A stretch of 64,000 bases of DNA from positions 62,001 to 126,000 of the forward strand of contig JAGPNG010000002.1 in assembly GCA_018052475.1 (NCBI GenBank), in the 5' to 3' direction. The DNA is from Candidatus Fermentithermobacillaceae bacterium. GTDB lineage: Bacteria > Bacillota > Sulfobacillia > Fermentithermobacillales > Fermentithermobacillaceae. Below are positions 3,915 through 58,710 of the stretch, in pieces. A program made the translations under genes and the position numbers. The notes beneath the pieces are model-generated. The model ran no database searches, was not told the DNA's origin, and saw only the letters and a program-made list of their open reading frames with translations. How positions within the stretch are numbered: the stretch's first letter is position 1; the number at the start of each line of letters is the position of its first letter.

Positions 3915-3970
3915 ATGGATCGGTACAGCTTCTTACATAGTGGTTCCTCCAAAAGAGGAATAGGTACAGG

Positions 3971-4010
3971 AATTGCCAGGTTTGGGCTATTAGCTAACCT
4001 GGCAATTTGA
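3971..4010 (+). terminator. stem-loop after the ferredoxin gene
   Basis: A perfect 12-bp stem (AATTGCCAGGTT at 3971-3982 with its complement at 3996-4007) has a 13-base loop and is followed only by a short TTTGA, so termination may be weak. A smaller hairpin with a 6-bp stem (3944-3960) precedes it. The downstream dipeptidase ribosome binding site starts right after. Confidence 0.6.
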
Positions 4011-4025
4011 TAAGGAGGAAGTTTC

Positions 4026-5030
4026 TTGACAGATGCTTTGAACCTTCACCAGAAATCTATAATAATCGACGGCCATTGCGATACGCTATTGGCTTTTGCC
4101 GGAAGAGGACTATACGCTTCTTCGCAGCAGCGCGATTTCTTTGAGAGAAATGAGAGTGGTCACATAGATCTCCCGCGGCTTAAGGAAGGCGGAGTGACGT
4201 GTCAAGTGATGGCTCTTTATATTGAGCCTCAGTACAAACCGACCCGTTCCGCGCGAAGATGTCTGGAACTTATGGATGCCTTCTACAGTCTGGTTGACGT
4301 TTCTGAGAGTTTTGTTCTTGCGACTTCCGCGCAAGACATCAGAAATGCAAAGGAAAGCGGTAAGGTGTGCGGTCTTTTGAGCATAGAGGGGGGCGAAGCG
4401 ATCGAAGGCAGCCTTCGCGTTCTGAGGACTTTTTACCGACTCGGAGTAAGGGCTATGGGTCTTACATGGAATCAGAGAAACGATCTAGCCGATGGAGTAG
4501 GAGAAAAACATGCGGGTTCCAGCATCACCGATTTGGGCATTTCAGTCATCAAGGAAATGGAGCGTCTTGGGATGCTCGTCGACGTGTCCCATCTTTCGGA
4601 ATCCAGTTTCTGGGGCGTTCATGAAGTTGCAGAAAGGCCTTATATAGCGTCTCACTCAAATGCTAGAGCCCTTGCCTCGCATCCGCGCAATCTCACGGAC
4701 AAACAAATAGAAGCACTAGCCGAAAAGGGCGGAGTTATCGGTGTGGTATATTGCCCGGCTTTTGTGGATGACGACGACGAAAAAGTGTCCCTTTCCAGGC
4801 TTTGCGATCATATAGATCACATAAAGAAGATTGCAGGGATAGACCACGTAGGTCTGGGTTCGGATTTTGACGGATTTGGGACTCCACCTGGAAAGCCTCA
4901 GGTATTCAAGGACGTTTCGGAATTGCCTCTCCTTACGCAAGAACTAATGAATCGCGGCTATAGCGAGGAAGACATTCAAAAAGTCCTCGGAGGTAACTGG
5001 CTTAGGGTGTATGAGGAAGTTCTCGGTTAG
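4026..5030 (+). CDS. membrane dipeptidase (peptidase family M19)
   Basis: A 334-residue protein starting with TTG at 4026, six bases after GGAGGAAG. Family M19 zinc dipeptidases cleave dipeptides, including D-amino-acid ones. The metal ligands are visible: IDGHCDT near residue 17 (H and D), IEGGEA near 124 (bridging Glu), VDVSHLSE near 187 and ASHSNAR near 209 (His ligands), and GLGSDFDG near 280. There is no signal peptide, as usual for bacterial cytosolic members. Length matches the family. Possible roles are peptide nutrition or recycling of wall peptides; the gene has no tight operon partner. Confidence 0.9.
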   Translation: MTDALNLHQKSIIIDGHCDTLLAFAGRGLYASSQQRDFFERNESGHIDLPRLKEGGVTCQVMALYIEPQYKPTRSARRCLELMDAFYSLVDVSESFVLATSAQDIRNAKESGKVCGLLSIEGGEAIEGSLRVLRTFYRLGVRAMGLTWNQRNDLADGVGEKHAGSSITDLGISVIKEMERLGMLVDVSHLSESSFWGVHEVAERPYIASHSNARALASHPRNLTDKQIEALAEKGGVIGVVYCPAFVDDDDEKVSLSRLCDHIDHIKKIAGIDHVGLGSDFDGFGTPPGKPQVFKDVSELPLLTQELMNRGYSEEDIQKVLGGNWLRVYEEVLG

Positions 5031-5081
5031 GCATGTTAGACTTGGGGCTATAACCCGAAGCACTAAGCGCGTCTGAAAATG

Positions 5082-5111
5082 GGGATAGGGCCTGAGCTCC
5101 ATCCCTGTTTT
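5082..5111 (+). terminator. weak terminator candidate after the dipeptidase
   Basis: GGGAT-A-GG (5082-5089) can pair with CC-ATCCC (5099-5105) with one bulge, followed by TGTTTT. The stem is short and imperfect. Confidence 0.35.
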
Positions 5112-5125
5112 GATCATTTAACGAA

Positions 5126-6835: not shown

Positions 6836-6929
6836 GTCTTAAGTATATCTGCCTTAATCTCCATTTTCTTTGATGACCCCGTTTTTATCCCTTTTCAGTG
6901 CTCAACTTCCCTTGGCGTACTTTCGATAC

Positions 6930-6957
6930 ATTACATAGAGCAGGGAGGCGATGTAAT
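6930..6957 (+). promoter_or_regulatory. hairpin presenting the cheW ribosome binding site
   Basis: ATTACAT (6930-6936) pairs perfectly with ATGTAAT (6951-6957), with the GGGAGG site in the 14-base loop. The first two bases of the cheW start codon lie in the stem. It may tune translation of the chemotaxis operon; this is inference. Confidence 0.4.
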
Positions 6958-7471
6958 GGCAAAATCCGATACCTTACGTGAAGAAGCGGCCAAAAAGAAT
7001 GACGACAGACAAATCGTAGCTTTCTCGCTAGGAAGCGAAACCTATGGCGTGGACATAAGCCAGGTACGGGAGATAATCCCGATCCAAAAGATTGTTCCGG
7101 TGCCCAGAGCGCCCGAATTTGTAGAGGGCATCATAAACCTTAGGGGCAAAGTTATTCCCGTACTCGATCTAAGAAAACACTTTGGTTTTGAGAAAAAGGA
7201 AAGAGACGAGGAGCAAAAGATCGTACTTGCCGAATCTCACGGTGAGAGCATAGGCGTAATAGTTGATTCTGTGTCTTCGGTATTGAGGATTCAGGAAGAC
7301 TCTATAGAACCGCCCGCTTCTGTCATAAAAGGAGAAGGCGTTGACTACATAGCAGGTATCTGCAAAATGAACAGTTCTTTGATCGTGCTACTTGATCTCA
7401 CGAGAATAATATCCGATGCAGAAAGCCGAAGTCTCAAGGAAGTAGACCTGGCGTCTGCAGTGATGAAGTGA
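6956..7471 (+). CDS. cheW: chemotaxis coupling protein CheW
   Basis: 171 residues, ATG 6956 with GGGAGGCG upstream. After a charged leader the CheW fold begins at about residue 20: QIVAFSLGSETYGVDISQVREII, then FVEGIINLRGKVIPVLDLRKHF, which is the conserved coupling motif. CheW bridges chemoreceptors and the kinase CheA at the membrane signalling array. It is the first gene of a seven-gene che operon; cheA starts 10 bases downstream. No receptor gene is visible. A promoter is not obvious in 6836-6955. Confidence 0.96.
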   Translation: MAKSDTLREEAAKKNDDRQIVAFSLGSETYGVDISQVREIIPIQKIVPVPRAPEFVEGIINLRGKVIPVLDLRKHFGFEKKERDEEQKIVLAESHGESIGVIVDSVSSVLRIQEDSIEPPASVIKGEGVDYIAGICKMNSSLIVLLDLTRIISDAESRSLKEVDLASAVMK

Positions 7472-7481
7472 GTGGTGCCCA

Positions 7482-9482
7482 ATGAGCGGAAAAGACCGAA
7501 CCGAATTTCAAGAAGACTTACAGGTTTTCTTAGCTGAAGTCGATGAGATTTTGGCTGACACTGAAGAGAACCTGGTTGAGTTAGAAAAAGCCCCAGACAT
7601 CGGCATCATCCAAGAAGTCTTCAGGGCAATGCACACGATCAAGGGCGGGGCTGCTACGCTTGGTTTCCAAGATGCCGTTGAAGTGACCCATACGATGGAG
7701 AGCATCATGGAAAAGGTCCGTTCGGGAGAGCAAGAACTCACCTCAGATATGGTGGATGTATTGTTTGTGGTGCTTGACTGGTTAAAGGCATGGAAGGTTT
7801 CGCTAGAAGAAGAGACTGAGTGTCCATCCCGCGAGGAGGTCATGAATCTTATTAAGCGGTTTGCTTCTCCTACCGATGCCGGACGCCAAAGACCGCATCA
7901 GGAAGATTTGGAGGTTTTACCAGATGCAGACAGGGCTCTGGCCGAGAAACTTGATGGATATCTTTCGGACGGTGCGTCATTGTATGAGGTGAAAGTGGAT
8001 TTTAACCCCGAAGCCGATCTTTTGTCCGTACGGTGTTTCCAAGTGTATACCCTGGTATCCGAGTTGGTAGATATCATTGCTTCGAATCCGTCAATCGAAG
8101 ACATAGAGTCCGATCGCGTGGGAAACACTGTGGTTCTTTACGTTCCGGGGAAAGACGGTGCGGAATTGGCGCGAGTAACTGCTCAGTCGGTACAGGATGT
8201 GACGGAGGTAACCGTAGCACCTTACAGACCTAAGGCCAAAAAACCCTCTGAGCGCAAAGCTAACGGTGCGCAGGAAACTGTCTCGGCAGACAAAGCGCCT
8301 AAACGATCCTCACTGGGACGCACTGTCAGGGTTGATGTGGACCTTCTTGATTTTCTCATGAATATGGTAGGCGAACTCGTAATTGATAGGACCCGCCTTA
8401 CTCAGCTGGCCTCAAGGCTGTTGGTGGATAAAAGCACCTCGGTGATTGGCAATGAGTTGGCCGCACTTGCTTCTCATCTGCAGCGGACTTCACAAGAACT
8501 GCAAGAAGGAATAATGAGGGCTAGGCTCCTGCCCCTTAAGAATATATTCACAAAGTTTCCTAGGATGACACGAGATTTGGCAAGTCGGTGCGGAAAGCAG
8601 ATCGATCTACGAATTCAAGGCGAAGACACAGAACTGGATCGCACTGTCCTTGAAGCCATCGATGATCCTCTCATCCATATATTGAGAAATGCAGTTGATC
8701 ATGGCATTGAGAATCCGGAGGAAAGAAGGGCCCGTGGGAAACCGGAGTACGGCACTATTACGTTGTCTGCCTGGCATGAGGAGAATCAGGTTGTTATACA
8801 GGTAAAAGACGATGGCGCCGGGATGGAACCTGAGAAGCTAAAGCGATCTGCTGTCAATAAAGGGCTTATAACCCCGGAGGATTCAGCAAAGATGTCTGAT
8901 AAGGATGCGCTTGAACTTATCTTCATGCCCGGCTTTTCTACGGCAGAAGTTGCTACTCAAGTGTCCGGAAGGGGCGTCGGCATGGATGTTGTGCGGACTA
9001 ACCTTGAACGGATAAATGGCAACATCGAAGTAAGGAGCCGGGTAGGTTTGGGGACTTCTTTTACATTGAGGTTACCGTTGACCTTAGCCATAATGAGGGC
9101 TCTTCTGGTCGAGTGTTCGGAACTTATATATGCTGTACCTACGTCTTCCGTAGAAGAAGCCATTGCTCTGAGAAGGGAAGAAGTAAAGACCATACAAGGC
9201 AAACCGGCTTTGGTTGTGCGGGGTAGGATTTTTCCACTTGTCTCCCTCGAAGGAGCCTTGAATGGGGATTCATGGACTCTGAAAGACAGTCTACAATATG
9301 CGGTTCTTACCAGGAGTAACGATGAGCCTCTCGCTTTTGGAGTAGATGACCTAGTAGGAGAAGAAGAGATTGTACTCAAGGATATGGGTAGGATGTTGTC
9401 TAGGTTGAAGGGTATCACAGGCGCTACCATCCTTCCCGATGGTGATCCGGCACTGATTCTGGATGTTAATCGTCTGCTTTGA
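7482..9482 (+). CDS. cheA: chemotaxis histidine kinase CheA
   Basis: 666 residues. The domains in order are: HPt P1 with AMHTIKGGAATLGF and phospho-His51; a P2 CheY/CheB-docking domain at about 155-250; a charged linker; the dimerisation domain P3 at about 283-345; an HATPase P4 with N box HILRNAVDHGIE, G1 DDGAGME and G2 GRGVGMDVV; and the CheW-like P5 regulatory domain from about 530. All phosphotransfer and ATP motifs are intact, so it should autophosphorylate and pass phosphate to CheY (10683) and CheB (11048) in this operon. Length is normal. Confidence 0.97.
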   Translation: MSGKDRTEFQEDLQVFLAEVDEILADTEENLVELEKAPDIGIIQEVFRAMHTIKGGAATLGFQDAVEVTHTMESIMEKVRSGEQELTSDMVDVLFVVLDWLKAWKVSLEEETECPSREEVMNLIKRFASPTDAGRQRPHQEDLEVLPDADRALAEKLDGYLSDGASLYEVKVDFNPEADLLSVRCFQVYTLVSELVDIIASNPSIEDIESDRVGNTVVLYVPGKDGAELARVTAQSVQDVTEVTVAPYRPKAKKPSERKANGAQETVSADKAPKRSSLGRTVRVDVDLLDFLMNMVGELVIDRTRLTQLASRLLVDKSTSVIGNELAALASHLQRTSQELQEGIMRARLLPLKNIFTKFPRMTRDLASRCGKQIDLRIQGEDTELDRTVLEAIDDPLIHILRNAVDHGIENPEERRARGKPEYGTITLSAWHEENQVVIQVKDDGAGMEPEKLKRSAVNKGLITPEDSAKMSDKDALELIFMPGFSTAEVATQVSGRGVGMDVVRTNLERINGNIEVRSRVGLGTSFTLRLPLTLAIMRALLVECSELIYAVPTSSVEEAIALRREEVKTIQGKPALVVRGRIFPLVSLEGALNGDSWTLKDSLQYAVLTRSNDEPLAFGVDDLVGEEEIVLKDMGRMLSRLKGITGATILPDGDPALILDVNRLL

Positions 9483-9516
9483 GGAGTTTTGCTCATCTGC
9501 ATAAGGAGGAGCATGG

Positions 9517-10077
9517 ATGAATACATTGTTTTTCCGGGAGTGTACCAGGCTTGGTGTAGAGAAGGCAAGATCGACCCTTGTTGCGCTTACAGGGATGCCT
9601 TGTAGGGCAGACTTCGGGAACGTTAAATGCACTGAAGTCGACCATGTACCGATGCTATCCGGGTATCTCGATGACATCGTGCTGAGCTCTTGGGTTTCCT
9701 TTACAGGCGAAATGGACGGTCAAATCATAATACTGTTCAGGCCCGACTCGGCTCATGATGTGGTTTCTTCAATGGTCCCGCACTTCATAGAGGAAACGGA
9801 TTCGGAAAACCAGCAAGAACTGGAGGAGTCCATTGTATCCGAAATTGCAAACATGATAGGGGGCTCTCTTTTGAGCGCTATTGCGGATACGGCGCAAATG
9901 ACTCTCAAGCCGTCTCCACCTATGTTGATTAGGGAAATGGCCGGTGCGATCCTCGAAACAGCGTTAGCGACAAGCTATCTTTACTCCGGTGAGGTCTTTG
10001 CATCCGATGTGAAGTTCTCCCTTGCCGGGAGCGAGGCTCTTTTTGAGATAGTTTTGTTGTCCAGTAGGGAAAAGTAG
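9517..10077 (+). CDS. cheC: CheC-family CheY-phosphate phosphatase
   Basis: 186 residues, ATG 9517 with AAGGAGGAG upstream (an ATG four bases earlier is out of frame). The helix ESIVSEIANMIGG at about 109-121 carries the E-x2-N phosphatase signature of CheC/CheX/FliY. The expected second site near residue 155 (GAILETALAT) has lost the Asn, so probably only one active site works. In Bacillus and Thermotoga, CheC dephosphorylates CheY-P and binds CheD, which is encoded next here. That neighbour supports the call. Confidence 0.85.
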   Translation: MNTLFFRECTRLGVEKARSTLVALTGMPCRADFGNVKCTEVDHVPMLSGYLDDIVLSSWVSFTGEMDGQIIILFRPDSAHDVVSSMVPHFIEETDSENQQELEESIVSEIANMIGGSLLSAIADTAQMTLKPSPPMLIREMAGAILETALATSYLYSGEVFASDVKFSLAGSEALFEIVLLSSREK

Positions 10078-10110
10078 AACAGACGGCAGCACTTAGGACG
10101 GAGGATCCAA

Positions 10111-10677
10111 ATGGAGACGGACGGTTTGCGGGTCATCCCGGTGAAAATCGCAGAAATCAAAGTATCAAATAGCCAGGACGAGATCCTTGTTGCGTACTCG
10201 CTAGGTTCTTGCATAGGAGTTTGCTTGTGGGATCCGGTTTGTTGCGCCGGAGGAATGGCCCACGTATTCCTACCGCGCCCCAGGCAATATAGCTATGTAG
10301 CTGCTTCGGGTAACTCAGAGGTCATTCCTGCTTTCTTTCACCCACAGGAACCAAATGAACAACCTGGTAAATACGGGACTACGGCTGTCTCGAATCTGGC
10401 TCATTCGTTGGTGAGAATAGGCTGCAAGCGGGAAAGACTTATGGCAGCGATTGCAGGTGGAGCCAATGTTATCCCAGGCTTATCCTCTCCTTTTGGCGAA
10501 GTGGGAGTGATGAATCTAAAGGCAGTAGAGCAAGCGTTGGCGGATGAACGGATTGAAGTAGTCGGACGAGATACGGGCGGTAACTATGGAAGGTCGATGT
10601 ATCTATATGTTTCAAAAGGGGTTGTGAGAGTTACTTCCACAACAGGACCCGAAAAAGAATTCCGATTCAAGGAGTGA
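10111..10677 (+). CDS. cheD: chemoreceptor glutamine deamidase CheD
   Basis: 188 residues. The catalytic dyad is visible: SLGSCIGV with nucleophile Cys34, and GGMAHVFLP with His51; the later KYGTTAVSNL and AIAGGANV segments are also family hallmarks. CheD deamidates receptor Gln residues and is controlled by CheC in Bacillus-type adaptation. It lies immediately after cheC, and its stop codon falls inside the leader of cheY. The receptors it would modify are not in this window. Confidence 0.95.
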   Translation: METDGLRVIPVKIAEIKVSNSQDEILVAYSLGSCIGVCLWDPVCCAGGMAHVFLPRPRQYSYVAASGNSEVIPAFFHPQEPNEQPGKYGTTAVSNLAHSLVRIGCKRERLMAAIAGGANVIPGLSSPFGEVGVMNLKAVEQALADERIEVVGRDTGGNYGRSMYLYVSKGVVRVTSTTGPEKEFRFKE

Positions 10678-10682
10678 AAGGT

Positions 10683-11042
10683 ATGGCAAAAATCTTGGTT
10701 GTAGATGATGCGATGTTTATGAGAAACAAGACTTCAAGACTGCTTGCGGAGAACGGTTATGAAGTGGTAGAGGCGAGTAACGGCGAAGAGGCAGTAAAAC
10801 GCTACTTGCAGGAAAACCCTGACCTTGTACTTATGGATATTACCATGCCGGTACTAGATGGAATTGAGTCTCTCAAACAGATGAAGGAGCATGATCCTCA
10901 CGCGAAGGTAGTAATGGTGACGGCACTCGGACAAAAGAGCATGGTGTTAGAAGCCATAAAAGCGGGGGCACGAGATTTCATCGTAAAGCCCTTCCAGTCT
11001 GACAAATTGTTGGAAGCAGTAAGGAAACAATGCGAGGCGTAA
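10683..11042 (+). CDS. cheY: chemotaxis response regulator CheY
   Basis: A stand-alone receiver domain of 119 residues. ATG 10683 has AAGGAG nine bases upstream, at the end of cheD; the GTG at 10674 is less likely. Acidic pocket residues D8 and D9, phospho-acceptor D52 (LVLMDITMP), the switch Thr in VTALG, and Lys in FIVKPF are all present. Phosphorylated CheY binds the flagellar switch. Encoded between cheD and cheB, it is the likely phosphate acceptor of CheA. Confidence 0.95.
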   Translation: MAKILVVDDAMFMRNKTSRLLAENGYEVVEASNGEEAVKRYLQENPDLVLMDITMPVLDGIESLKQMKEHDPHAKVVMVTALGQKSMVLEAIKAGARDFIVKPFQSDKLLEAVRKQCEA

Positions 11043-11047
11043 GCTAA

Positions 11048-12142
11048 TTGCATATGACCGACGAGAAGATAAGGGTCTTAATAGCAGACGATTCCTTGTT
11101 TATGCGGCGGATGCTCAGGCAGATGCTCTCTGGCGATTCCCGGATTGAAGTAATAGACGAAGCGGCAGACGGCGTCGAAGCGGTTGCCAAGTGCATCTCG
11201 CTTAGTCCGGACGTGCTGGTCTTGGATGTAGAAATGCCCAAACTTGACGGGATCTCTGTTCTCAAAAACATAATGAACAATCGTCCTCTGCCGGTGGTAA
11301 TGTTTTCGTCATTGACGCAGCGCGGTTCTCAGGTAACGTTGGAGGCTCTTTCTATGGGGGCAGTAGATTTCGTTCCCAAACCTGCTTCCAGAGATAGCGT
11401 TACTTCGGTGGCCTCTGAGCTTTGTCAGAAGGTCATCCAAGCTTCTAAGGCCAGACTCAGGATCGGGGAGCCGTTGCGTCGCCACGAGAAAGAAAGAGCC
11501 AAGAGGAGGAAATCTTCTGCAGGCGAGGAGACTTTGGACTCTTTGGTCGTGATAGGTTCTTCTACCGGCGGACCGCAGGCTTTGGAGCAAATCGTATCTC
11601 ATCTTTTGCCCGATCTATCTTGCGGAATTGTCATCTGTCAGCACATGCCCAAAGGCTTCACGACTTCATTTGCTCAAAGGCTCGACAGCCTGTCTTCTTT
11701 GACTGTAAGAGAGTCTGAGCAAGAGGATGTGCTTGAGCCGGGGGTAGCGTTAGTAGCGAGGGGAGGATACCATCTTCGCCTCGACTCGTCAATTACAGAT
11801 GGACGACAGTCCTTCCATGTATATCTGGATGAAGGTACGCCTGTCCATGGAGTAAGGCCGTCTGTGGACATAACTCTTTTTGATGCTGTTTCTTTATTCG
11901 GATCCAATCTTATGGTAGTGATACTTACAGGCATGGGTTTTGATGGCGCCAAAGGAGCATGGGCCGCAAAACAAAAAGGGGCAACCGTTATCTGTCAAGA
12001 TCAAGAGACGTCTGTCGTATGGGGCATGCCCAAAGCTTGTTACGAAACCGGAGCTACCGATGTACTGGTTCCTATTACCGGCATCGCAAGTATGATCAAT
12101 GAATTCGGTGGACACCAATCGAAACGGAGTCTTGGGCGATGA
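11048..12142 (+). CDS. cheB: protein-glutamate methylesterase CheB
   Basis: 364 residues from TTG 11048 (GAGGCG about 10 bases upstream); ATG 11054 is an alternative. The N-terminal receiver has DD near 14-15 and phospho-Asp60 (VLVLDVEMP). After a basic linker (RRHEKERAKRRK) comes the methylesterase domain with the catalytic triad regions SSTGGPQAL (Ser), CQHMPKGFT (His) and GMGFDGAKG (Asp). It demethylates chemoreceptors and is activated by CheA. Its last four bases overlap the cheR start (ATGA), indicating translational coupling. Confidence 0.96.
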   Translation: MHMTDEKIRVLIADDSLFMRRMLRQMLSGDSRIEVIDEAADGVEAVAKCISLSPDVLVLDVEMPKLDGISVLKNIMNNRPLPVVMFSSLTQRGSQVTLEALSMGAVDFVPKPASRDSVTSVASELCQKVIQASKARLRIGEPLRRHEKERAKRRKSSAGEETLDSLVVIGSSTGGPQALEQIVSHLLPDLSCGIVICQHMPKGFTTSFAQRLDSLSSLTVRESEQEDVLEPGVALVARGGYHLRLDSSITDGRQSFHVYLDEGTPVHGVRPSVDITLFDAVSLFGSNLMVVILTGMGFDGAKGAWAAKQKGATVICQDQETSVVWGMPKACYETGATDVLVPITGIASMINEFGGHQSKRSLGR

Positions 12143-12963
12143 TAAGAAACGAAGGTATGTCAGAGAATGATGTTAACTTCTACGGCACTGAGTATGCCTA
12201 TTTCTGTAAGAAGGTAACGGATCTTTCAGGGATAAAACTACATAACTACAAAAGCCAGCAGATGCATCGCAGGCTAGTAAATTACATGAAAAGGAATGAG
12301 ATACCGGACTTCCTCACATTTGCCAAGCGTCTGGAGAAAGATGAGCGTGAGTTGGCAAAGTTGCTTGACTACCTGACTATAAACGTTTCCGAATTCTTCC
12401 GGAATTGCGAGCACTGGGATGTGCTATGCGATGAATTCATCCCGGAACTGATTCGCGCGAACTCACCTGCAAAGACCATACAGGCGTGGAGCGCAGGTTC
12501 TTCGGGAGGACAAGAGGCCTATTCGCTTGCGATGGCGTTTCTGGAAGCAGGTTGCCACAAAATATCAATACTTGGCACAGACATAGATGAAGGTAGCTTG
12601 AACAAAGCCAAAGAAGGGCGGTATTTGGCGGATGAAGTGAAAGGTGTTCCCGAAACCCTCATCTCTAAGTATTTCGATGTTGACGGCGATTCATACATAG
12701 TCAATAACAAACTAAAGAGATTTGTAAGGTTCGAAAAACACAATTTGTTGGGGACAGATTATCCCAAGAATATGGAACTCGTTTTATGTAGAAACGTTCT
12801 CATATATTTCACAGATCAAGGCAAGAACCATGTCATCTCGAACCTGGCGCGTTCAATCGTACCGGGCGGCATCTTGTTCATAGGTGCGACTGAAGCTCTG
12901 TTTAACGCTAGAGACTATGGTTTTTTGCAGGTTCGTCCGTTTTTCTATAGACGTTGTTCCTAA
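12139..12963 (+). CDS. cheR: chemoreceptor methyltransferase CheR
   Basis: 274 residues. The N-terminal helical domain ends in LDYLTINVSEFFRN at about 75-88, the CheR signature. The SAM-binding domain follows with AWSAGSSGGQEAYSLAM (motif I), LGTDIDEG and VLCRNVLIYF. It methylates receptor Glu residues using SAM and opposes CheB. ATG 12139 overlaps cheB by four bases; ATG 12154 is a possible alternative. This is the last gene of the tightly packed run; cheX follows after about 50 bases. Confidence 0.96.
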   Translation: MIRNEGMSENDVNFYGTEYAYFCKKVTDLSGIKLHNYKSQQMHRRLVNYMKRNEIPDFLTFAKRLEKDERELAKLLDYLTINVSEFFRNCEHWDVLCDEFIPELIRANSPAKTIQAWSAGSSGGQEAYSLAMAFLEAGCHKISILGTDIDEGSLNKAKEGRYLADEVKGVPETLISKYFDVDGDSYIVNNKLKRFVRFEKHNLLGTDYPKNMELVLCRNVLIYFTDQGKNHVISNLARSIVPGGILFIGATEALFNARDYGFLQVRPFFYRRCS

Positions 12964-48690: not shown

Positions 48691-50292
48691 ATGAAAAAGA
48701 CGTTTATGAGTGCTTTGACAATGATTTTGGCACTTTGCTTTTTGGCCTTACCTTTGGCGTCAGTGGTGAAAGCTCAAGTTCCCGGAGTAGAATTCAAGTT
48801 GGGCAATGAGGTCTTATTTGACTCCGAGCGATACTATGACCTCATGAAAGGCAAAAAGGTTGGCCTTGTAACCAATCAAACGGGCGTCAACAGTCAAGGC
48901 ATAAGTACCATAGACCGTTTGGCCGGAGATCCTAACGTGAAGTTGACGGCTCTTTTTTGTCCTGAGCACGGACTCGATGGTACGGCGCCGGCTGGTTCAT
49001 ATGTGAAATCCTATACCCATCCTACGCTACAGATCCCGGTGTATAGCCTATACGGTAGCACGAGGAAACCTACTTTAGACATGCTGCAGAATGTGGATGT
49101 ATTGGTTTTTGACATCCAGGATGTAGGCGCCAGATGGTATACATATATTTCCACTTTGAACTACGTCTTGGAAGTCGCAGGCTCATGCGGCAAACCTGTT
49201 ATCGTGCTTGACAGGCCCAATCCTCTTGGGGGTGAGATCGTAGAAGGTCCTGTGCTGGAAGACAGGTTCAAGACTTTCGTGGGTGTAGATAACATCCCTA
49301 TGGCGCATGGGATGACCATAGGGGAACTGGCTCGCTTTTTCAATCGCCCTAGCAATGGTTTCAATGCCGACCTTACGGTTGTACCTATGCAAGGGTATAC
49401 GCGGGATATGATTTGGCAGGATACGGGCCTTAGCTGGATTCCAACCTCCCCAAATATCCCTACTATCGAGTCAGTCTTTTGCTATATGGCTACCGGCTTA
49501 GGAGAAGGGACTGGCGTTGGTCAGAGAGACAAATTCACTTGGGTAGGGGGATTGGGGATTGATAGCCAGAGGTTTGCAGATCTCTTGAACGGGTCTAATC
49601 TCTCAGGCGTGGAGTATATCCCTGACACGAGAGGATCGTATGGTGGAGTGAAACTCAAGATCACTGACTACACGACGTTTAATCCTGCGCGCTCCGGTAT
49701 ATACGCCTTGGCGTACGCCAGACAGCTGAGCAGTTTCAAAGTGCCAAAAAGCGGTTCTACCACTTCGAGCATAGTTATGTTCGATAAGATTATGGGTACG
49801 GATAGGATGGGTATATGGCTTGAACAGAAACTCTCGCCTCGAGAAATTGAAAAGAAATATGCCGCCGAACTCGAACGGTTCAAGAATGAGAGACAGAAGT
49901 ATCTAATCTACGGATACGCCGGAAAACCGGGAATGGTTGCTGTGGTTGTTGACCGCGTGCCTCTTTTCTTTGATTCTGAACCATACATAGATGAAAATGG
50001 TCGCACAATAGTACCGGTTAGAGCGATTGCAGAAGCTCTTGGTGCCGAAGTGAATTGGAATCAGGAGCGACGTGAGGTTACTATAGCGAATGGTTCGTCG
50101 TCTGTTAGTATGATCATAGGGAGTAACGTGGCGTGGATTGATGGTCAGGAGTTTGTCATGGACACAGTTCCTGTCTTGGTGAACGGCCGCACGATGGTTC
50201 CGGCTAGGTACGTTTCTGAACTTCTAGGTGCTGTGGTTGACTTTGACTACGCCGTGGAGTATGGATACAAGACCGTGCTGATTAATAGATAG
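48691..50292 (+). CDS. NamZ-type exo-beta-N-acetylmuramidase (DUF1343) with copper-amine-oxidase-like wall domain
   Basis: 533 residues, ATG 48691 with GGAGAG upstream. A signal peptide ends at about residue 29 (VVKAQ). The DUF1343/NamZ part (about 33-405) shows GLVTNQTGVNSQG, FCPEHGLDGTAPAG, VFDIQDVGARWYTYIST, LDRPNPLGGEIVEGP and SPNIPTIESVFCY. NamZ releases terminal MurNAc from peptidoglycan fragments. A C-terminal copper-amine-oxidase N-terminal-like domain (about 420-533, GRTIVPVRAIAEALGAEV and GRTMVPARYVSELLGA) probably binds the wall. Role: wall recycling. The gene is preceded by rsfS with a 47-base gap. Confidence 0.92.
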   Translation: MKKTFMSALTMILALCFLALPLASVVKAQVPGVEFKLGNEVLFDSERYYDLMKGKKVGLVTNQTGVNSQGISTIDRLAGDPNVKLTALFCPEHGLDGTAPAGSYVKSYTHPTLQIPVYSLYGSTRKPTLDMLQNVDVLVFDIQDVGARWYTYISTLNYVLEVAGSCGKPVIVLDRPNPLGGEIVEGPVLEDRFKTFVGVDNIPMAHGMTIGELARFFNRPSNGFNADLTVVPMQGYTRDMIWQDTGLSWIPTSPNIPTIESVFCYMATGLGEGTGVGQRDKFTWVGGLGIDSQRFADLLNGSNLSGVEYIPDTRGSYGGVKLKITDYTTFNPARSGIYALAYARQLSSFKVPKSGSTTSSIVMFDKIMGTDRMGIWLEQKLSPREIEKKYAAELERFKNERQKYLIYGYAGKPGMVAVVVDRVPLFFDSEPYIDENGRTIVPVRAIAEALGAEVNWNQERREVTIANGSSSVSMIIGSNVAWIDGQEFVMDTVPVLVNGRTMVPARYVSELLGAVVDFDYAVEYGYKTVLINR

Positions 50293-50374: not shown

Positions 50375-50698
50375 TTAGAGCGTTCTTATGAGAATCGTTG
50401 TGCCGATGGTATCCTCTATAACGCTGAGAAGTTTTGGAAGATCTATGCTGGGATCCAAAAGACACCTGTAGGTTTCAGATTCAGTTTCTATTTCTATTTC
50501 GGGGACTTTTTTTCGTAGAAGGGATATAGAGACTATGTCATCTGCGTCGATCATTATGGGCCTTTGTTGAGTCCCGTGATCTTGCGGCGTTAGCACGATC
50601 TCTGATCGTGTGCTTTGCATTCTGCATGGAGTGGTCTGATAGAAGCCAGTCCTGAGTCTTACAAGAACGTCTATTGTTATCGCCTCCCTAATTCCCAT
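50375..50698 (-). CDS. hypothetical protein, divergent from the HTH regulator
   Basis: About 107 residues (110 if ATG 50707 is used). Readable parts are VLVRLRTGFYQTTPCRMQSTRSEI, RPIMIDADDIVSISLLRKKVPEIEIETESETYRCLLDPSIDLPKLL, which look like a real beta-rich soluble protein. The start is unclear: neither ATG (50707, 50698) has a ribosome binding site, while a good AGGGAGGCG (about 50690-50682) is followed at normal distance by ATA, not a standard start. Possibly a small regulator or partner of the gene at 50860. No family recognised. Confidence 0.45.
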   Translation of the reverse strand: MGIREAITIDVLVRLRTGFYQTTPCRMQSTRSEIVLTPQDHGTQQRPIMIDADDIVSISLLRKKVPEIEIETESETYRCLLDPSIDLPKLLSVIEDTIGTTILIRTL

Positions 50699-50737
50699 TG
50701 TGCACATATGAGATTACTTTGATATACCTTCTCGTCA

Positions 50738-50752
50738 TTTGGCAATGCCAAA
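50738..50752. promoter_or_regulatory. inverted repeat TTTGGCA-A-TGCCAAA
   Basis: A perfect 7-1-7 palindrome in the 150-base gap between divergent genes. The shape is that of a dimeric repressor operator. It lies about 110 bases before the HTH regulator start. Confidence 0.5.
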
Positions 50753-50761
50753 TACTTTCAC

Positions 50762-50789
50762 GGATTGTGTCAATCCAGTGCAGGATTGA
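50762..50789. promoter_or_regulatory. triple GGATTG/CAATCC inverted-repeat array
   Basis: GGATTG (50762-50767), CAATCC (50771-50776) and GGATTG (50783-50788) form two overlapping inverted repeats: 6-3-6, and 7-6-7 as TCAATCC/GGATTGA. They may be operator half-sites or mutually exclusive hairpins in the leader of the regulator. Confidence 0.5.
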
Positions 50790-50859
50790 AACAAATTGGA
50801 GGAGAAGTCTAAGGTATCAAGATCAGGTGCTTGCGTATTCGGAAAAGGGGGGGCTCGCT

Positions 50860-52395
50860 ATGCACCTTTCTCAGAAACTAGACGCCCTGATGGGTGTCAC
50901 AAACACTACCAATAGTATGCTCGCTCGATATGTTTCTTTGGATCCTTCATATATAAGCAGGTTGCGATCTGGAGCCAGAGTGTTCATTAAGAAAGAAACC
51001 AGAGAAGAGTATTTCCAAAGCATGGCTACCTACTTCGCTCGCCATTGTACCTTGGACTATCAGCGGAGGGCGCTATACGATCTACTGAAGATAAACCCTT
51101 ATTCATATGACGAGGATGAAATTGCGGAGGCCATCTACGAGTGGCTTTTGGTTGAGGACACCAATGCTCAAACCGTAGGGAGTTTTCTTGAAGGACTGTC
51201 AAATATTCAGTTCGGCAGAGGCCAGCGATCCTATGAGGATGATCCGTCGACCCCTGTCTCCAGACCCGATACCTCTGTTTATTATGGCGTGCAGGGCAAA
51301 AGGCAAGCAGCGATAGATTTTCTGTCTGAGGTTATCCAGCATGAGACCCCCCAGACTCTATTACTGTTTAGCGATGAAGACATAGAATGGCTCGTTGGCG
51401 ATCGCCAATTCACGCTTAAGTGGGCTGAACTCATGGCCGAGATTGTTTCGCGAGGTAATCGCATAAGGATCATACATGTCGTAAGCAGGGATCTAGATGA
51501 GATGCTCGCTGCGATTGCCCAATGGATGCCGCTTTATATGTCTGGTGCGATAGAACCTTACTTTTACCCCAAAAAGCGAGATGGTATCTTCAAGCGTACC
51601 CTCTTTATTGCTCCGGAGACCGCTGCCGTTGTGTCTACGTCGGTAGGAAGTGAAGAGACCAGACCTGCGAATTTTCTATTCAGAGACAAAGAGACCATAG
51701 GATCTTTCGTCGATGAATACAATGCATATTTCAAGATGTGTAGACCTCTCATGAAGATCTTTACCACTAAGGATAGAGATTACTACATTTCAACACTTGT
51801 CGAGTTCGAGAGGGAAGAGACGAATTCTATCATTTCAACCAATTCCATCTCTATTCTAACCATGCCGGAAAGTCTGGTGCACGATGTGTTCGCCGAGTTT
51901 GGCCCTAAGGAAAAGGGTAAGTTTCTCAATGAACACAGGTTAAGACGAGATAATTTCGAGAAACAGATCCAGAGCCACCTCTTCACTGAGATTATGAGCC
52001 TTCCGGACGTGGCGGCTGTGAAAGAAGGACGTGTCAAGATAGCCTCAGCAGACATGCTAAGTATGAGTTCCGCCTACTATACTTCTGAGCAATATGTTGA
52101 ACATCTCGAGCACATCATCTATCTCGTTGACACATACCCGAATTTCCATGTCTCAATCGATAGATCCGTTGCAGAAGACAGATCAATTGTTTACGCAAAA
52201 GAAGACGTAGGCGTCATCGTCGCCAAAACTTCCGTCCCAACAGTTGCTATGGCAATCAACGAAAGCAACTTAACTGCAGCTTTCTGGGATTACCTGAGAC
52301 AGTCCATAGACGACAGAGACTACGCAAACCCGCACAAGAAGAAAGAAGTAGCCAATACACTGCGCGAATTCGCAAACCACATCAAAGAATCGTGA
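50860..52395 (+). CDS. large XRE-type helix-turn-helix regulator with unknown sensor domain
   Basis: 511 residues. ATG 50860 lies behind AAAAGGGGGGG; the frame is open further upstream but that part covers the operator-like repeats. An HTH is seen at about 16-40 (TTNSMLARYVSLDPSYISRLRSGAR). The remainder has no membrane segment and contains LLFSDEDIEWLVGDRQF, RGNRIRIIHVVSRDLDEMLAAIAQWMPLY, FKRTLFIAPETAAVVSTS and EYNAYFKMCRPLMKIFT, a pattern I recall from long Clostridial XRE regulators but cannot name. It probably senses a ligand and controls itself and the divergent small gene. Confidence 0.72.
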   Translation: MHLSQKLDALMGVTNTTNSMLARYVSLDPSYISRLRSGARVFIKKETREEYFQSMATYFARHCTLDYQRRALYDLLKINPYSYDEDEIAEAIYEWLLVEDTNAQTVGSFLEGLSNIQFGRGQRSYEDDPSTPVSRPDTSVYYGVQGKRQAAIDFLSEVIQHETPQTLLLFSDEDIEWLVGDRQFTLKWAELMAEIVSRGNRIRIIHVVSRDLDEMLAAIAQWMPLYMSGAIEPYFYPKKRDGIFKRTLFIAPETAAVVSTSVGSEETRPANFLFRDKETIGSFVDEYNAYFKMCRPLMKIFTTKDRDYYISTLVEFEREETNSIISTNSISILTMPESLVHDVFAEFGPKEKGKFLNEHRLRRDNFEKQIQSHLFTEIMSLPDVAAVKEGRVKIASADMLSMSSAYYTSEQYVEHLEHIIYLVDTYPNFHVSIDRSVAEDRSIVYAKEDVGVIVAKTSVPTVAMAINESNLTAAFWDYLRQSIDDRDYANPHKKKEVANTLREFANHIKES

Positions 52396-52848: not shown

Positions 52849-53805
52849 TCAGTACAGAAAACACGACACCCAGTGGTCCGGTTCGAGTTCTTCTAGGTAC
52901 GGGTCTTCTTCTCTGCAGCGATCGTGTGCCTGCGGGCACCTACCCGCGAATCTGCATCCGGGCGGTGGGTTGATTGGACTTGGCACTTCTCCAGGTAAGC
53001 TTATGCGCGCTCTTGACTTTTCTATGTTCGGATCGGGTATAGGGTTGGCTGACATAAGCGCTTTAGTGTATGGATGAAGCGGCCACTCGTAAATGCGCTC
53101 GGATGGAGCGATCTCGACGATCTTACCTAGGTACATTACTGCAACCCTGTGAGATATATGGCGAACCATAGAGAGATCGTGGGCTATGAACATAAACGAC
53201 AGTTCTCGTTCTTCCTGGAGTTTTGTAAGTAGGTTTACTACTTGCGCTTGTATTGATACGTCCAAAGACGAGATGGGTTCGTCCGCTATGATGAATGCGG
53301 GATCGACCGCTAAGGCTCGAGCTATCCCGATTCTTTGTCTTTGCCCGCCCGAGAACTCGTGCGGGAACCTATTGGCATGTTCCCTGCTGAGGCCGACGAT
53401 TTCGAGGAGGTGATGTATTTTATCGGTACGCTCTTGTCCTGACTCAAGCCCGTGAATATCCAAGGGTTCACCTATGATTTCACCTACTGTCATCCGTGGG
53501 TCTAGCGATGCATAGGGATCCTGGAAGATCATCTGCAGTCTCCTACGGAACCATAGGAGATCCTTTTCCGGAACCCTGGTGATGTCCTTGCCATCAAAGA
53601 TGATCGTGCCATCTGTTGGCTCATAGAGTCGTGATACGGTTCTACCCACAGTTGTCTTACCGCATCCACTTTCTCCAACTATACCTAAAACCTCGCCTTT
53701 CCTCACCTCGAAAGACACATCATCGACGGCTTTGAGGATTTTACGCTTTCCTACCCTGAAGTACTTTTTCAAGTTGTCAATCTTGAGGGCGATTTCATCA
53801 GTCAT
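52849..53805 (-). CDS. oppF: oligopeptide ABC transporter ATP-binding protein OppF
   Basis: 318 residues, ATG at 53805 with GGGGGTGG upstream, overlapping oppD. Walker A GESGCGKTTVGR at about 47-58, the signature FSGGQRQR, Walker B FIIADEPISSLD and the H-loop HDLS are intact. The C-terminal oligopeptide-type extension has PGCRFAGRCPQAHDRCREEDP, whose Cys residues may bind an Fe-S cluster. With OppD it drives peptide import through OppB/OppC. Last gene of the operon. Confidence 0.95.
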   Translation of the reverse strand: MTDEIALKIDNLKKYFRVGKRKILKAVDDVSFEVRKGEVLGIVGESGCGKTTVGRTVSRLYEPTDGTIIFDGKDITRVPEKDLLWFRRRLQMIFQDPYASLDPRMTVGEIIGEPLDIHGLESGQERTDKIHHLLEIVGLSREHANRFPHEFSGGQRQRIGIARALAVDPAFIIADEPISSLDVSIQAQVVNLLTKLQEERELSFMFIAHDLSMVRHISHRVAVMYLGKIVEIAPSERIYEWPLHPYTKALMSANPIPDPNIEKSRARISLPGEVPSPINPPPGCRFAGRCPQAHDRCREEDPYLEELEPDHWVSCFLY

Positions 53806-54865
53806 GTGCACCACCCCCGCCGTATAATTCTACAGGTAGCCGGTTCGGATTTGCCTCATGGTGGAGCCAGCAGGACACACGATGGCTGTCTCCAACGCTT
53901 ATAGGTTCCGAGTCGTGTTCCAAACAGATCTTCATAGAGTACTTACACCTTGGTGCAAAGGCGCAGCCCGTCGGAGGTTCAAATAGATCAGGCGGGGTAC
54001 CTGGAATTGACGCTAATTCCATTCGAGACGGCGCATCCAGCCTAGGCACAGCCTGTAGGAGCGCCCTGGTATATGGATGCGCAGGTCGGTAGAATATGTC
54101 CGACGAGCTTCCGCTTTCCACAACCTTGCCTGCGTACATTACCACGATATTGCGCGCCAGACGGGCTACAACACCCAAGTTGTGAGTTATGAGGACTATA
54201 GTCATCCCCATCTTATCCTGCAAGCTTTGCAGGAGTTCAAGTATTTGAGACTGAATCGTCACATCAAGAGACGTAGTAGGCTCATCAGCGATTAAGAGCA
54301 TCGGCTCGCAGGCAAGGGCAATAGCTATCATTGCCCTCTGGCGCATCCCGCCGCTAAACTCGTGCGGATATTGTGACGCACGAACCGTAGGGTTAGGGAT
54401 CTCTACGAGGTTTAGCATTTCAACTGCTCTTTCCATAGCTTCGTGTTTTGGTACGCGTTGATGCTTCATCACTGCTTCTGCAATCTGATTACCTACTGTC
54501 ATCGTAGGATTTAGCCCTGTCATAGGATCTTGGAAGATCATGCCTATTTCTCTTCCTCGAACAGACTGCATTTGTTTTTCGGTTAAAGATAAAATATCCT
54601 TACCGTTGAAAGTGATCTTACCGCCCTTTATCTCTCCGGGTGGCATTGGTGTAAGTCTCATCACGGCTTGGACAGTTACAGTTTTGCCGCAGCCCGATTC
54701 GCCGACAACGGCGAGCGACCCTCCCTGTTCCACCGAATAGGTTACTCCGCGTACTGCATGTACTTCGCCTGCGTAAGTGTGGAAAGAAACCTGGAGGTCT
54801 TCTATGGACAGCAACTTTTGTTCAGCGAGTTCCGCAAACTCCTGGTTAGCAATGTTTTGTTCCAT
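53798..54865 (-). CDS. oppD: oligopeptide ABC transporter ATP-binding protein OppD
   Basis: 355 residues, ATG at 54865. Walker A GESGCGKTVTVQ, the Q-loop MIFQDPMTGLNPTMTVG, the signature FSGGMRQRAMIAIALA, Walker B LLIADEPTTSLD and HNLG are all present. The C-terminal domain has PTGCAFAPRCKYSMKICLEHDSE with conserved Cys. It pairs with OppF. Its first 20 residues are a slightly long leader. Gap to oppC is 13 bases. Confidence 0.95.
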   Translation of the reverse strand: MEQNIANQEFAELAEQKLLSIEDLQVSFHTYAGEVHAVRGVTYSVEQGGSLAVVGESGCGKTVTVQAVMRLTPMPPGEIKGGKITFNGKDILSLTEKQMQSVRGREIGMIFQDPMTGLNPTMTVGNQIAEAVMKHQRVPKHEAMERAVEMLNLVEIPNPTVRASQYPHEFSGGMRQRAMIAIALACEPMLLIADEPTTSLDVTIQSQILELLQSLQDKMGMTIVLITHNLGVVARLARNIVVMYAGKVVESGSSSDIFYRPAHPYTRALLQAVPRLDAPSRMELASIPGTPPDLFEPPTGCAFAPRCKYSMKICLEHDSEPISVGDSHRVSCWLHHEANPNRLPVELYGGGGAHD

Positions 54866-54878
54866 GTTGGCTCACTCC

Positions 54879-55802
54879 CTATTGACGCAGGCGCGGGTCA
54901 AGAGCATCTCTTAATCCATCGCCAACAAAGTTGAATGATAGTATAAGTAGACTCATAACCAAAGCGGGGATAATCATGTTTTGCGGATATATCCTGAGCA
55001 CCTGATATCCCTCGTTTGCAAGAGTTCCCAGACTGGCTTGGGGCATTGGGACTCCTAAGCCTATGAAGCTCAAGAATGCTTCTCCAAATATTGCCCCCGG
55101 TATGCTAGACGTTAGACTGACAAGGACGACACCCATGGTGTTGGGAATGAGGTGCCTGGCAATTATCCGGCGGGGAGGAGCTCCTACCGACTTGGCCGCG
55201 AGTACGTACTCCATTTCTTTTAACTGAAGGATTTGTCCACGCACTAATCGGGCCATGCCGACCCATCCGGTCAAACTCATGGCGATGATTATCGAGGCAA
55301 GCCCGGGTTCCATAACTACCAGAAGCAATATAACTACCAGTAGATATGGTACGCCGTAGAGAATGTCTACTATGCGCATCATTATGTCATCTACGATACC
55401 GCCGAAGTAACCCGCTATTCCTCCCCAGACTACTCCAATCACCAAGTCTATTAGGGCAGCTGTGATTCCTATGAACACCGAGATCCTTGTGCCGTGCCAC
55501 AACCGAGTGAACATATCGCGGCCAAGATAGTCGGTGCCAAACCAGTGGCGACTGCTGATGAACTCGTTGATGTGACCGTAGTCGCAGGTTCTATAGTCCC
55601 ATGGACTAACGATGGGACCGAAAATGGCCATCACTGCAAGTATGGCGAGGATGCTTAGCCCGATGACCGCCAGTTTGTTCTTGCGGAACCGCATCCAAAC
55701 ATCTTCCCAGTACCCAATCGGCGGCCTGGTAATAGCATCGCTCACTTTCTCGTCGAGTGTAAGAGGCGCAAAGTCTTGGGGTTCAGGATAAAAGTTCAGC
55801 AT
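54879..55802 (-). CDS. oppC: oligopeptide ABC transporter permease OppC
   Basis: 307 residues, ATG at 55802, three bases from oppB. Six membrane helices; the first at about 45-67 after a cytosolic N-terminus (DVWMRFRKNKLAVIGL, the OppC_N motif). HWFGTDYLGRDMFTRLWHGTRISV and the EAA loop VLAAKSVGAPPRRIIARHLIPN contact the ATPases. It forms the channel with OppB. Confidence 0.95.
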   Translation of the reverse strand: MLNFYPEPQDFAPLTLDEKVSDAITRPPIGYWEDVWMRFRKNKLAVIGLSILAILAVMAIFGPIVSPWDYRTCDYGHINEFISSRHWFGTDYLGRDMFTRLWHGTRISVFIGITAALIDLVIGVVWGGIAGYFGGIVDDIMMRIVDILYGVPYLLVVILLLVVMEPGLASIIIAMSLTGWVGMARLVRGQILQLKEMEYVLAAKSVGAPPRRIIARHLIPNTMGVVLVSLTSSIPGAIFGEAFLSFIGLGVPMPQASLGTLANEGYQVLRIYPQNMIIPALVMSLLILSFNFVGDGLRDALDPRLRQ

Positions 55803-55805
55803 TTG

Positions 55806-56735
55806 CTAGTCCTCCTTTCCTCGCGCGATTCGAATTCTAGGATCGATTAGGCCGTATGCTATATCCACGAGAAATGTCATGAATAGCAGCAATGCGGAAT
55901 AGAAAACAGTGGTCCCCATTATCATGGGATAATCCCTGTTGTATATGCTTTCAACGAAATACTTGCCAAGCCCGGGTATGCCGAACATGCGCTCAATCAC
56001 AAGAGTGCCCGTGGTTATGCCTGCAATCAAGGGACCCAGGATTGTTACTATCGGTAAGATTGCATTTCTGACTCCGTGTTTCCAAATTATCTGGGCAGAA
56101 TTGAGGCCCTTTGCTTTTGCGGTACGTATATAGTCTTGGTTGAGAACCTCAAGCATGCTTGACCTCATCATTCTTGTCATAGTTGCCAATGTGCCAAGGC
56201 CAAGTGCAAACGCGGGAAGTATGGTATGTCTGAAACTCTCCCACCTGGCTATAGGTAGAAGCTTCAGCTTGTATCCCAGTAGATACTGAAGGATCGATGC
56301 TACGATGAAGTTTGGTATCGAAACGCCGATTACTGCGATGATTATTGCAATGTAGTCAAGGGCTTGGCCCCGATATAATGCAGCTATGATTCCAAGCGCA
56401 AGACCTATGGTAACTGCAAAAACTAAGGCTTCAATACCCAGTACCGCTGACGTTGGAAATGTGTATTTGATTATATCATTGACGCTACGGCCTCGTTCAC
56501 GGATAGAAAGACCCAGGTCGAAGTGGAGTAGGTTTTTGAGCAAAGTGGTATACTGTTGCCATTTGGGTTTGTCTAGCCCGTATTTGCGTTCAAGTTGTTT
56601 TTCGACCAGGGGCGTCAGTTTCACACTGGTAAATGGGCCGCCGGGTACTGCGTTCATCAGTATGAAACTAACGGTGACGATTACCCATAGCGATAAGAGC
56701 ATGAAACCGAACCGCCTAACAACATATCGCCCCAT
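55806..56735 (-). CDS. oppB: oligopeptide ABC transporter permease OppB
   Basis: 309 residues, ATG at 56735 with AAGGAGGCG upstream. Six membrane helices. The N-terminal VRRFGFMLLSLWVIVTVSFILMNAVPGGPF and the EAA loop YIRTAKAKGLNSAQIIWKHGVRNAILP are typical. It lies downstream of the binding-protein gene, from which a hairpin separates it. Confidence 0.95.
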   Translation of the reverse strand: MGRYVVRRFGFMLLSLWVIVTVSFILMNAVPGGPFTSVKLTPLVEKQLERKYGLDKPKWQQYTTLLKNLLHFDLGLSIRERGRSVNDIIKYTFPTSAVLGIEALVFAVTIGLALGIIAALYRGQALDYIAIIIAVIGVSIPNFIVASILQYLLGYKLKLLPIARWESFRHTILPAFALGLGTLATMTRMMRSSMLEVLNQDYIRTAKAKGLNSAQIIWKHGVRNAILPIVTILGPLIAGITTGTLVIERMFGIPGLGKYFVESIYNRDYPMIMGTTVFYSALLLFMTFLVDIAYGLIDPRIRIARGKED

Positions 56736-56824: not shown

Positions 56825-58543
56825 CTACTTGCCAGGAGGTGTAGGCGCTTCGTAACCAAGTGCCTCGACCGCTTCCTTGAAGAGTTTCTGAGCTTCAGCA
56901 GGATCGCCATTTATGGGCAGATAGTCTTTCAGATACTTTTCAACAAAAACCTCGCCGGGTTGTGCTCCTTGCATTGAAGGAGGGTTGTAGGCGTAGGCGG
57001 GTGCGGAGTAGTTTCTTAGAACGTTATCGCAATATTCCTGCCTGTCAATGGCTAGAGACAGAGCCTTTCTAACCTTGGCGTCTTTAAGCAACGGATGTTC
57101 TAGATTGCATTCAAGATAGAAGCATACGGCTTCCGGCATTTGCTTGAACTCGTCTGGGCGCTCGGCCTGGAACTTCGGAATGAAGTCGCCGGGAACGCCG
57201 ATAACATCCAGTTCTCCTGCTTCGTACATGGTAACCGGCGTGTTGATATCTTTGATCATGTCAAAGTTTATTGCGTCTAGTTTTACGTTTGAAGCATCCC
57301 AGTAATTGGGATTCTTCTTCAATACCATCTTGCTTCCATGTTTCCAATCGTCGATTACGTACGGCCCGCAGTAGAGCATCTTATCGAGCTCAGTAGCATA
57401 GGATTCGCCCCACTCTTTGTGTGCTTTCTCGTTAAGTGGGAAATAGGTTGCAAATGCAGTAAGGCTAAGGAAGAAAGTGCTTGGAGCTTCCAGGGTTACT
57501 ACAAGATGTCGGTCATCAGTTGCCTTGACACCCATATTATCCATGGCTTCTTGTAGTTCCTTGAGAGCTGCGGCGTTTCCGTCGGGATCTTCGTTTACAT
57601 CTGGGATCTCAACATTGGCCACAGCTTCGGCGCCCTTGACGAAGAACAGCATGTAGTTGTACTGAGAAGCAGTTCGCGGATCAACTGCTGTTTTCCATGC
57701 GTACTCAAAGTCATGAGCAGTCAGCGGTTCTCCATTGGACCATTTCAGTCCATCTTTGATCGTGAATTCGTACACAAGACCATCTTCTGATATTGTCCAA
57801 CTTTCCGCGAGCCCTGAGCCCTGTTCGTATGCGCCGTCGGGGTTCATACGTACAAGGCCTTCCAACACGGCGTTAAGGACGTCTAAGGACACCGTATCGG
57901 TACAAGTGACTGACTGAAGATCTGGGGGCTCTTCACCAAGGTTCAGGTTAAGTACGTTGTCACCGTCCGGACGTCCTTCTGTGTAGGCCCATTTCCATTC
58001 GTTACTGGGCATGAAAGCGGTTCTGACAATGCCTTTCACCCACGGATGTTCGGCGTAGTTCCTCTGACGCCAGTAGACCGGGATGATCGGGGCTTCATCC
58101 AAAAGGATCTTTTCCGCCTCGGCCATCAGTTCCATACGTTCTTGCTGATCAGTGGATTTCTTGGCTTGGGCTATGAGTTCGTCATATCTGGCATTCGACC
58201 AGCCCACGTCATTGTAAGGACCATCAGTAACCCAAAGATCGAGGAAACTCATGGGGTCGTTGTAATCAGCACCCCAACCTGCGAAGACAAGATCAAAATC
58301 ATGATCTCTCATCTTCTGCAGTCGTGTTTTGAAGTCGACATTTTCCAGCACTAACTCGATGCCAAGGTTCGTCCTCAGGATTTCCTGAAGCCCCTGCGCG
58401 TATTTCTTAGCGGCTTCGCTATCATCTGATAGGAACCGGATGGCTGGTAATGCCTCCTTCTCTTGTTCCGGCCCACAGCCTGCGAGCATTGATGCAATTA
58501 AAAGAGCGCAGGTTAAGGCCACCACAACCTTTTTGATTCGCAT
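56825..58543 (-). CDS. oppA: peptide-binding lipoprotein OppA with circularly permuted domain order
   Basis: 572 residues, ATG at 58543 behind GGGAGGGAAG; lipobox LAGC at residues 20-23. The order of segments is unusual. Residues about 32-188 (IRFLSDDSEAAKKYAQGLQE, NLGIELVLENVDFKTRLQ, GWGADYNDPMSFLDLW, AEKILLDEAPIIPVYW, then KGIVRTAFMPSNEWKWAY) correspond to what is normally the C-terminal third of OppA. Residues about 195-572 start with VLNLNLGEEPPDLQSVTCTDTVS and run through LKWSNGEPLTAHDFEYAWK, YFPLNEKAHKEWG, KNPNYWD and VRKALSLAIDRQEYCDNV to EAVEALGYEAPTPPGK, i.e. the normal N-terminal start through the inter-lobe point. The junctions fall where natural OppA would be opened and closed. 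First gene of the opp operon; binds peptides outside the membrane. Confidence 0.9.
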   Translation of the reverse strand: MRIKKVVVALTCALLIASMLAGCGPEQEKEALPAIRFLSDDSEAAKKYAQGLQEILRTNLGIELVLENVDFKTRLQKMRDHDFDLVFAGWGADYNDPMSFLDLWVTDGPYNDVGWSNARYDELIAQAKKSTDQQERMELMAEAEKILLDEAPIIPVYWRQRNYAEHPWVKGIVRTAFMPSNEWKWAYTEGRPDGDNVLNLNLGEEPPDLQSVTCTDTVSLDVLNAVLEGLVRMNPDGAYEQGSGLAESWTISEDGLVYEFTIKDGLKWSNGEPLTAHDFEYAWKTAVDPRTASQYNYMLFFVKGAEAVANVEIPDVNEDPDGNAAALKELQEAMDNMGVKATDDRHLVVTLEAPSTFFLSLTAFATYFPLNEKAHKEWGESYATELDKMLYCGPYVIDDWKHGSKMVLKKNPNYWDASNVKLDAINFDMIKDINTPVTMYEAGELDVIGVPGDFIPKFQAERPDEFKQMPEAVCFYLECNLEHPLLKDAKVRKALSLAIDRQEYCDNVLRNYSAPAYAYNPPSMQGAQPGEVFVEKYLKDYLPINGDPAEAQKLFKEAVEALGYEAPTPPGK

Positions 58544-58710
58544 TAACTTCCCTCCCAATAGTTTTGTGTTGATTCGCCAGCTGCCAAAAACGAAACGCCA
58601 ACTGGTCCGGTTAGGGTGAGATTCCCCGGACACCAACGAAAATCCTCCTTAGCTGCCTAGAATCTCCAAGGAAGATGTCTTAAATGGCCATCTTACACGA
58701 AAGACTCGAT

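Follow-up and report, generated by a model that had tools for sequence, protein, structure and literature searches.

The window analysed here, a stretch of 64,000 nucleotides, carries on its reverse strand an oppA–oppBCDF operon whose first gene, a single reading frame of 572 codons plus stop (56825..58543), is annotated as a circularly permuted oppA with a type I breakpoint. The frame has an ATG start and a strong ribosome-binding site, GGGAGGG (58550..58556), as read from the sequence, and its product is an OppA-type lipoprotein. Directly downstream, on the same strand, are genes for the permeases OppB (55806..56735; Pfam BPD_transp_1) and OppC (54879..55802; BPD_transp_1 and OppC_N), and for the ATPases OppD (53798..54865) and OppF (52849..53814), both of which match ABC_tran and oligo_HPY. 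Because oppBCDF adjoins the permuted gene, the most likely role of the protein is ordinary peptide capture for this importer. The same genes lie downstream of the permuted gene in many relatives too, and in some other clades (L305–L308) the permuted gene sits after oppF instead.

Three other genes near the operon or at the window's end were recorded. A NamZ-type exo-beta-N-acetylmuramidase gene with a copper amine oxidase N-terminal-like domain (48694–50292, forward strand) is found close by, and could speculatively be connected with the uptake of murein peptides. Upstream of the neighbour of this gene is a long orf (50698–52395, forward strand) without a Pfam match from 50854 on. A distant SBP_bac_5 gene with an adjoining OppB-like permease gene crosses the right end of the window (contig coordinates 125560–127077); it is the only other match in this 1.4-Mb genome, with pieces at about 30% identity, and it maps as a single colinear match, which is the ordinary order.

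Architecture of the permuted protein

The lipoprotein signal peptide extends through Cys23 (58475..58543, reverse strand, as are all features of this protein). It is followed by the segment found at the C-terminal end of ordinary OppA (residues 31–188; 57980..58453; about reference positions 384/387–548), a linker, EGRPDGDN, that connects the old C-terminus with what was the mature N-terminus (residues 189–196; 57956..57979), and the N-terminal and middle segment of ordinary OppA (residues 197–565; 56849..57955; about 37/42–387). These assignments come from phmmer and from mapping on ordinary references; reference numbering throughout is that of the Thermoanaerobacter wiegelii OppA in L044, which has the ordinary order and on which the first segment maps to 384–548 and the second to 37–387. 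The 572-residue protein consequently presents the normal C-terminal third first and the normal N-terminal two thirds second; each ordinary part occurs once, the old termini are fused, and new termini are created. A second C-terminal third was sought after residue 565 and is absent, only a seven-residue tail being present.

The protein matches Pfam SBP_bac_5 with an E-value of 3e-90. When it was compared with all PDB chains using phmmer, the best matches (E about 1e-91 to 1e-89) each consisted of two stretches in inverted order. With B. subtilis OppA (8are), residues 189–537 align with chain positions 11–340 and residues 31–174 with positions 367–511, and 6npo and 5kzt are likewise matched in two inverted stretches. 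Residues W90 and D93 form a W-x-x-D motif (58265..58276) that is invariant across the type I alignment; it corresponds to W498/D501 of AliD, a Trp/Asp pair by which the N-terminus of the peptide is clamped (PMC11192437). Judged by these sequence comparisons, the product of 56825–58543 is a circularly permuted OppA, each part of which matches its counterpart in the same ordinary subfamily.

An initial sequence-only reading had anticipated much of this arrangement. The swapped segment order that it proposed is borne out by the inverted matches to 8are, 6npo and 5kzt and on the ordinary references, each part aligning with its own stretch of an OppA of known structure. The intact lipobox, LAGC at residues 20–23, can be read in the translation, the switch that it put near residue 190 corresponds to the linker, and its claim that both joins are in frame in one 572-codon gene agrees with the single frame, ATG start, ribosome-binding site and oppBCDF operon. 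It had placed the break at the inter-lobe point; the break lies instead within Domain III (lobe 2), immediately ahead of the LPxIxFL strand, at residues 386/387 of an ordinary relative. The motif IRFLSDDSE, which by that reading would normally follow the end of the protein, is present and opens it at residues 35–43. The idea that a complete, ordinary OppA acquired an unrelated domain at its N-terminus can be discarded, since the first segment aligns with the C-terminal third of the nearest ordinary OppA proteins at 47–57% identity, no other C-terminal third is present downstream, and no evidence favouring such a domain was found.

A model of the protein predicted by AF2 without templates, using 18 permuted sequences, has a pLDDT of 90.2 and a pTM of 0.83; the corresponding values for a permuted protein with a different breakpoint (type III, L250; see below) are 81.1 and 0.78. 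The best Foldseek match to the predicted model is B. subtilis OppA, over 394 columns. Foldseek aligns in sequence order, so that only about two thirds of the model could be covered; an order-free superposition was not part of the comparison.

Conservation within the order

The same segment order is present in 12 proteins from 11 of the 17 genomes searched of Candidatus Fermentithermobacillales, spanning two families, and also beyond the order. The sequence-only reading had advised looking for it in related genomes, and had not foreseen its recurrence. Identities among the members of the order with this arrangement are 56–93%, and one of the 12 proteins (in G006) is N-terminally truncated. Most of the named records (L034–L042) are Candidatus Fermentithermobacillaceae assemblies, and a single-contig genome (L011, G004) carries the same permuted order. 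The permuted gene is kept under purifying selection where this was measured: dN/dS is 0.05 and 0.08 for the two closest usable orthologue pairs and is low in both parts, synonymous sites being saturated in the remaining pairs tried. At one locus of the same order (L314, G016; 5928–6926) there is an eroded type I permuted oppA beside a broken oppD/oppF.

The source genome is a draft of 23 contigs that is 92.6% complete, and tandem oppA copies could in principle have been collapsed or wrongly joined during metagenome assembly. Such an error is rejected, as many relatives whose genomes were assembled independently, some as one contig, have the identical arrangement at identities as low as 56%; in addition, the isolate Romboutsia timonensis has a permuted oppA at another breakpoint, and purifying selection acts on both parts of the gene in step. 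Neither of the two findings that the sequence-only reading had named as refuting it—a misassembly at the junction, or an extra domain with a normal C-terminal third following—was encountered. We are therefore confident that the gene encodes a real, functional permuted oligopeptide-binding lipoprotein serving the downstream OppBCDF importer, with the reservation that peptide binding and transport are inferred, without experiment. The protein would bind peptides by the ordinary Venus-flytrap mechanism, with its lipid anchor hanging from lobe 2 instead of lobe 1.

Permuted OppA proteins across Bacillota

The class, the phylum, other classes and one family were screened with a profile that bridges the join (A1), two further searches used single permuted proteins as queries, and segment order was established by mapping the open frames of every locus to ordinary references. 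This yielded 81 distinct permuted proteins, to which L312 adds five tandem copies and L313 one, giving over 80 permuted OppA genes in Bacillota, of which four belong to the isolate Romboutsia timonensis. For L014, L210, L242 and L244, which are among the 81, the protein is truncated or its first match is extended, and the type was taken from near relatives. Some matches to the junction profile contain stop codons (Leptotrichia, Brachyspira and one Bacilli genome); these look like tandem ordinary genes and were not counted. In even samples about 2% of genomes have a permuted oppA, which is a lower bound with six candidates scored per genome, and on the same scoring no confirmed permutant was found in a sample of 399 Bacilli genomes.

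Three breakpoints recur, at about reference positions 387 (type I), 308 (type II) and 473 (type III). Type I includes the order of the source genome, families f158, f96 and f140, the Clostridia loci L043 and L210–L212, and the group L213/L238–L242; in three families beyond the order of the source genome, proteins with the type I order share the linker EGRPGGD. Type II includes the Romboutsia family, L200, L312, L243, and L214 with L268–L273, and type III includes L246, L248–L253 and L265. In the Romboutsia family, type II proteins are present in 20 of 71 genomes, with up to seven copies per genome (the fetched frames were mapped individually). The join of the old C-terminus to the old N-terminus is constant in all types, running from about reference positions 527–550 to 37–51. 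Type I proteins at L153–L160 (families f158, f96 and f140) have a signal peptide that ends in AxA without a lipobox, and so probably have no lipid anchor. The Pfam model spans the middle of the protein only, which creates a blind spot in annotation: a type III permutant such as L250 looks like one continuous normal domain.

In OppA relatives the N- and C-terminal segments are both in Domain I, and lobe 2 is Domain III (PMC11192437, PMC5736914). In AliD, Domain I comprises residues 29–63, 191–296 and 583–617, and Domain III is one continuous stretch, 297–582 (PMC11192437); the layout of BbOppA4 is similar (PMC5736914). By a hand count on a printed alignment, the type II break is at about residue 279 of Salmonella OppA (1b05), and the type I and type III breaks on this alignment are later than that of type II and before the last Domain I segment. 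Breaks within Domain III relocate both chain ends to lobe 2, together with the lipid anchor where there is one, and we infer that the membrane tether has moved from lobe 1 to lobe 2.

Number and route of origins

Maximum likelihood trees (LG+C20) were built after the permuted proteins had been rotated into the ordinary order. Type I proteins form three clades among ordinary proteins, and AU tests reject joining Ia with Ib (p = 3.6e-4) and joining all three (p = 3.8e-4). Type II proteins also form three clades, of which IIa is weakly supported (68/31). Here the rejections rest on pairs (IIa with IIcd, 1.4e-4; IIb with IIcd, 1.8e-4), without a result for all type II proteins joined. The tests on both types used smaller sequence sets than the large tree. 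The clade groups were named after the first tree had been seen, and the AU p-values are therefore somewhat optimistic. A proposed separation of L272/L273 from L214 as distinct origins was dropped after a denser tree was made; these groups may be one. Three type I clades, three type II clades and type III would together give about seven origins on these sequence data, the exact number being uncertain. The N- and C-terminal parts of each permuted protein have the same nearest ordinary subfamily in nearly all cases, and a chimeric origin of the permuted proteins from distant genes is accordingly ruled out. Ordinary proteins surround several of the permuted clades in the trees, the nearest of them being up to about 70% identical.

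The coincidence of break positions was evaluated with a simple simulation, devised after the data had been seen and indicative only. Two triples of near-identical positions are obtained with a frequency of 1.5e-5 if any position is allowed, and of 3e-4 to 7e-4 if breaks are limited to lobe 2 or its loops.

All permuted OppA proteins might instead descend from one ancient permutation, with losses or further rearrangement giving the rest. The same join of the old termini is common to all of them, and permuted forms of one type can resemble each other; yet the breaks fall at three different sites, the AU tests reject joining clades within type I and within type II, and a chance reversion to exactly the ordinary order is implausible. 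The nesting of several permuted clades among ordinary proteins also speaks against a single origin, which we regard as very improbable. In our assessment OppA-type proteins are probably prone to permutation, having undergone about seven independent permutations in Bacillota, at three sites in lobe 2 only, which carry the chain ends (and the tether, if present) from lobe 1 to lobe 2. We infer that this recurs because the old N- and C-termini are both in Domain I of lobe 1, making their fusion cheap, and because certain lobe-2 loops tolerate new ends.

In the route that we propose, oppA would first be duplicated in tandem, the C-terminus of copy 1 would then be fused to the mature N-terminus of copy 2, and the outer parts would be lost with the first signal peptide being kept. 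Tandem arrays of ordinary oppA are frequent among the loci examined, which makes this route plausible, and in Leptotrichia and Brachyspira successive copies lie so close together, end to start, that the profile can span the gap via stop codons. The loci examined yielded no intermediate in the form of a fused or partial duplicate, so the duplication route remains an inference. The alternative that oppA was split and its pieces rejoined in the other order, without tandem duplication, seems doubtful without being excluded. In 3o6p, 229 residues from the C-terminal part of an OppA relative, starting near the type II break, were solved as a separate chain, which suggests that OppA pieces may fold alone; against this, no split oppA genes were seen, although there was no systematic search for them, and the tandem arrays that tandem duplication needs are frequent.

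The closest known system is B. subtilis OppA (8are/8arn) with its SBP_bac_5 (PF00496) relatives. The permuted protein shares with these proteins both segments, the W-x-x-D motif, the predicted fold over the two thirds that could be aligned, the lipoprotein signal and the oppBCDF neighbours, and differs from them in its rotated segments, its fused old termini, and the position of its termini and tether in lobe 2. For glycine betaine-binding and molybdate-binding proteins, CPSARST identified circular permutation at the level of structure, at less than 24% identity (PMC2395249). That case is also a circular permutation within two-lobed solute-binding proteins; however, it concerns distant relationships in other families, whereas in OppA close relatives, repeated origins and fixed sites are involved. 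Pneumococcal AliC (8qlh) forms a domain-swapped dimer (PMC11192437), which shows that lobes 1 and 2 of an OppA relative can come apart at the hinge, near the site of the type II break, but the swap is between two chains of ordinary segment order and is not a permutation. The sequence-only reading knew of no described permutation in this family, and none was found for OppA-type proteins in the open-access literature searched, subscription papers and preprints being outside the scope of that search.

As a rule, natural circular permutations are ancient single events that are difficult to date. The most striking feature of OppA permutation is its recurrence, and the two forms of this large two-lobed protein, permuted and ordinary, are both extant, at about 45–70% identity. 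With such close coexisting forms, repeated origins and fixed breakpoints, the route of permutation, the constraints on folding and the effect of tether position become directly comparable. If this reading is correct, it amounts to a natural experiment in which the order of the chain, its folding and its docking vary inside one protein family. At one Bacillota locus (L312, G1064; 2340–12490) five type II permuted oppA genes stand in tandem, showing that permuted genes themselves duplicate.
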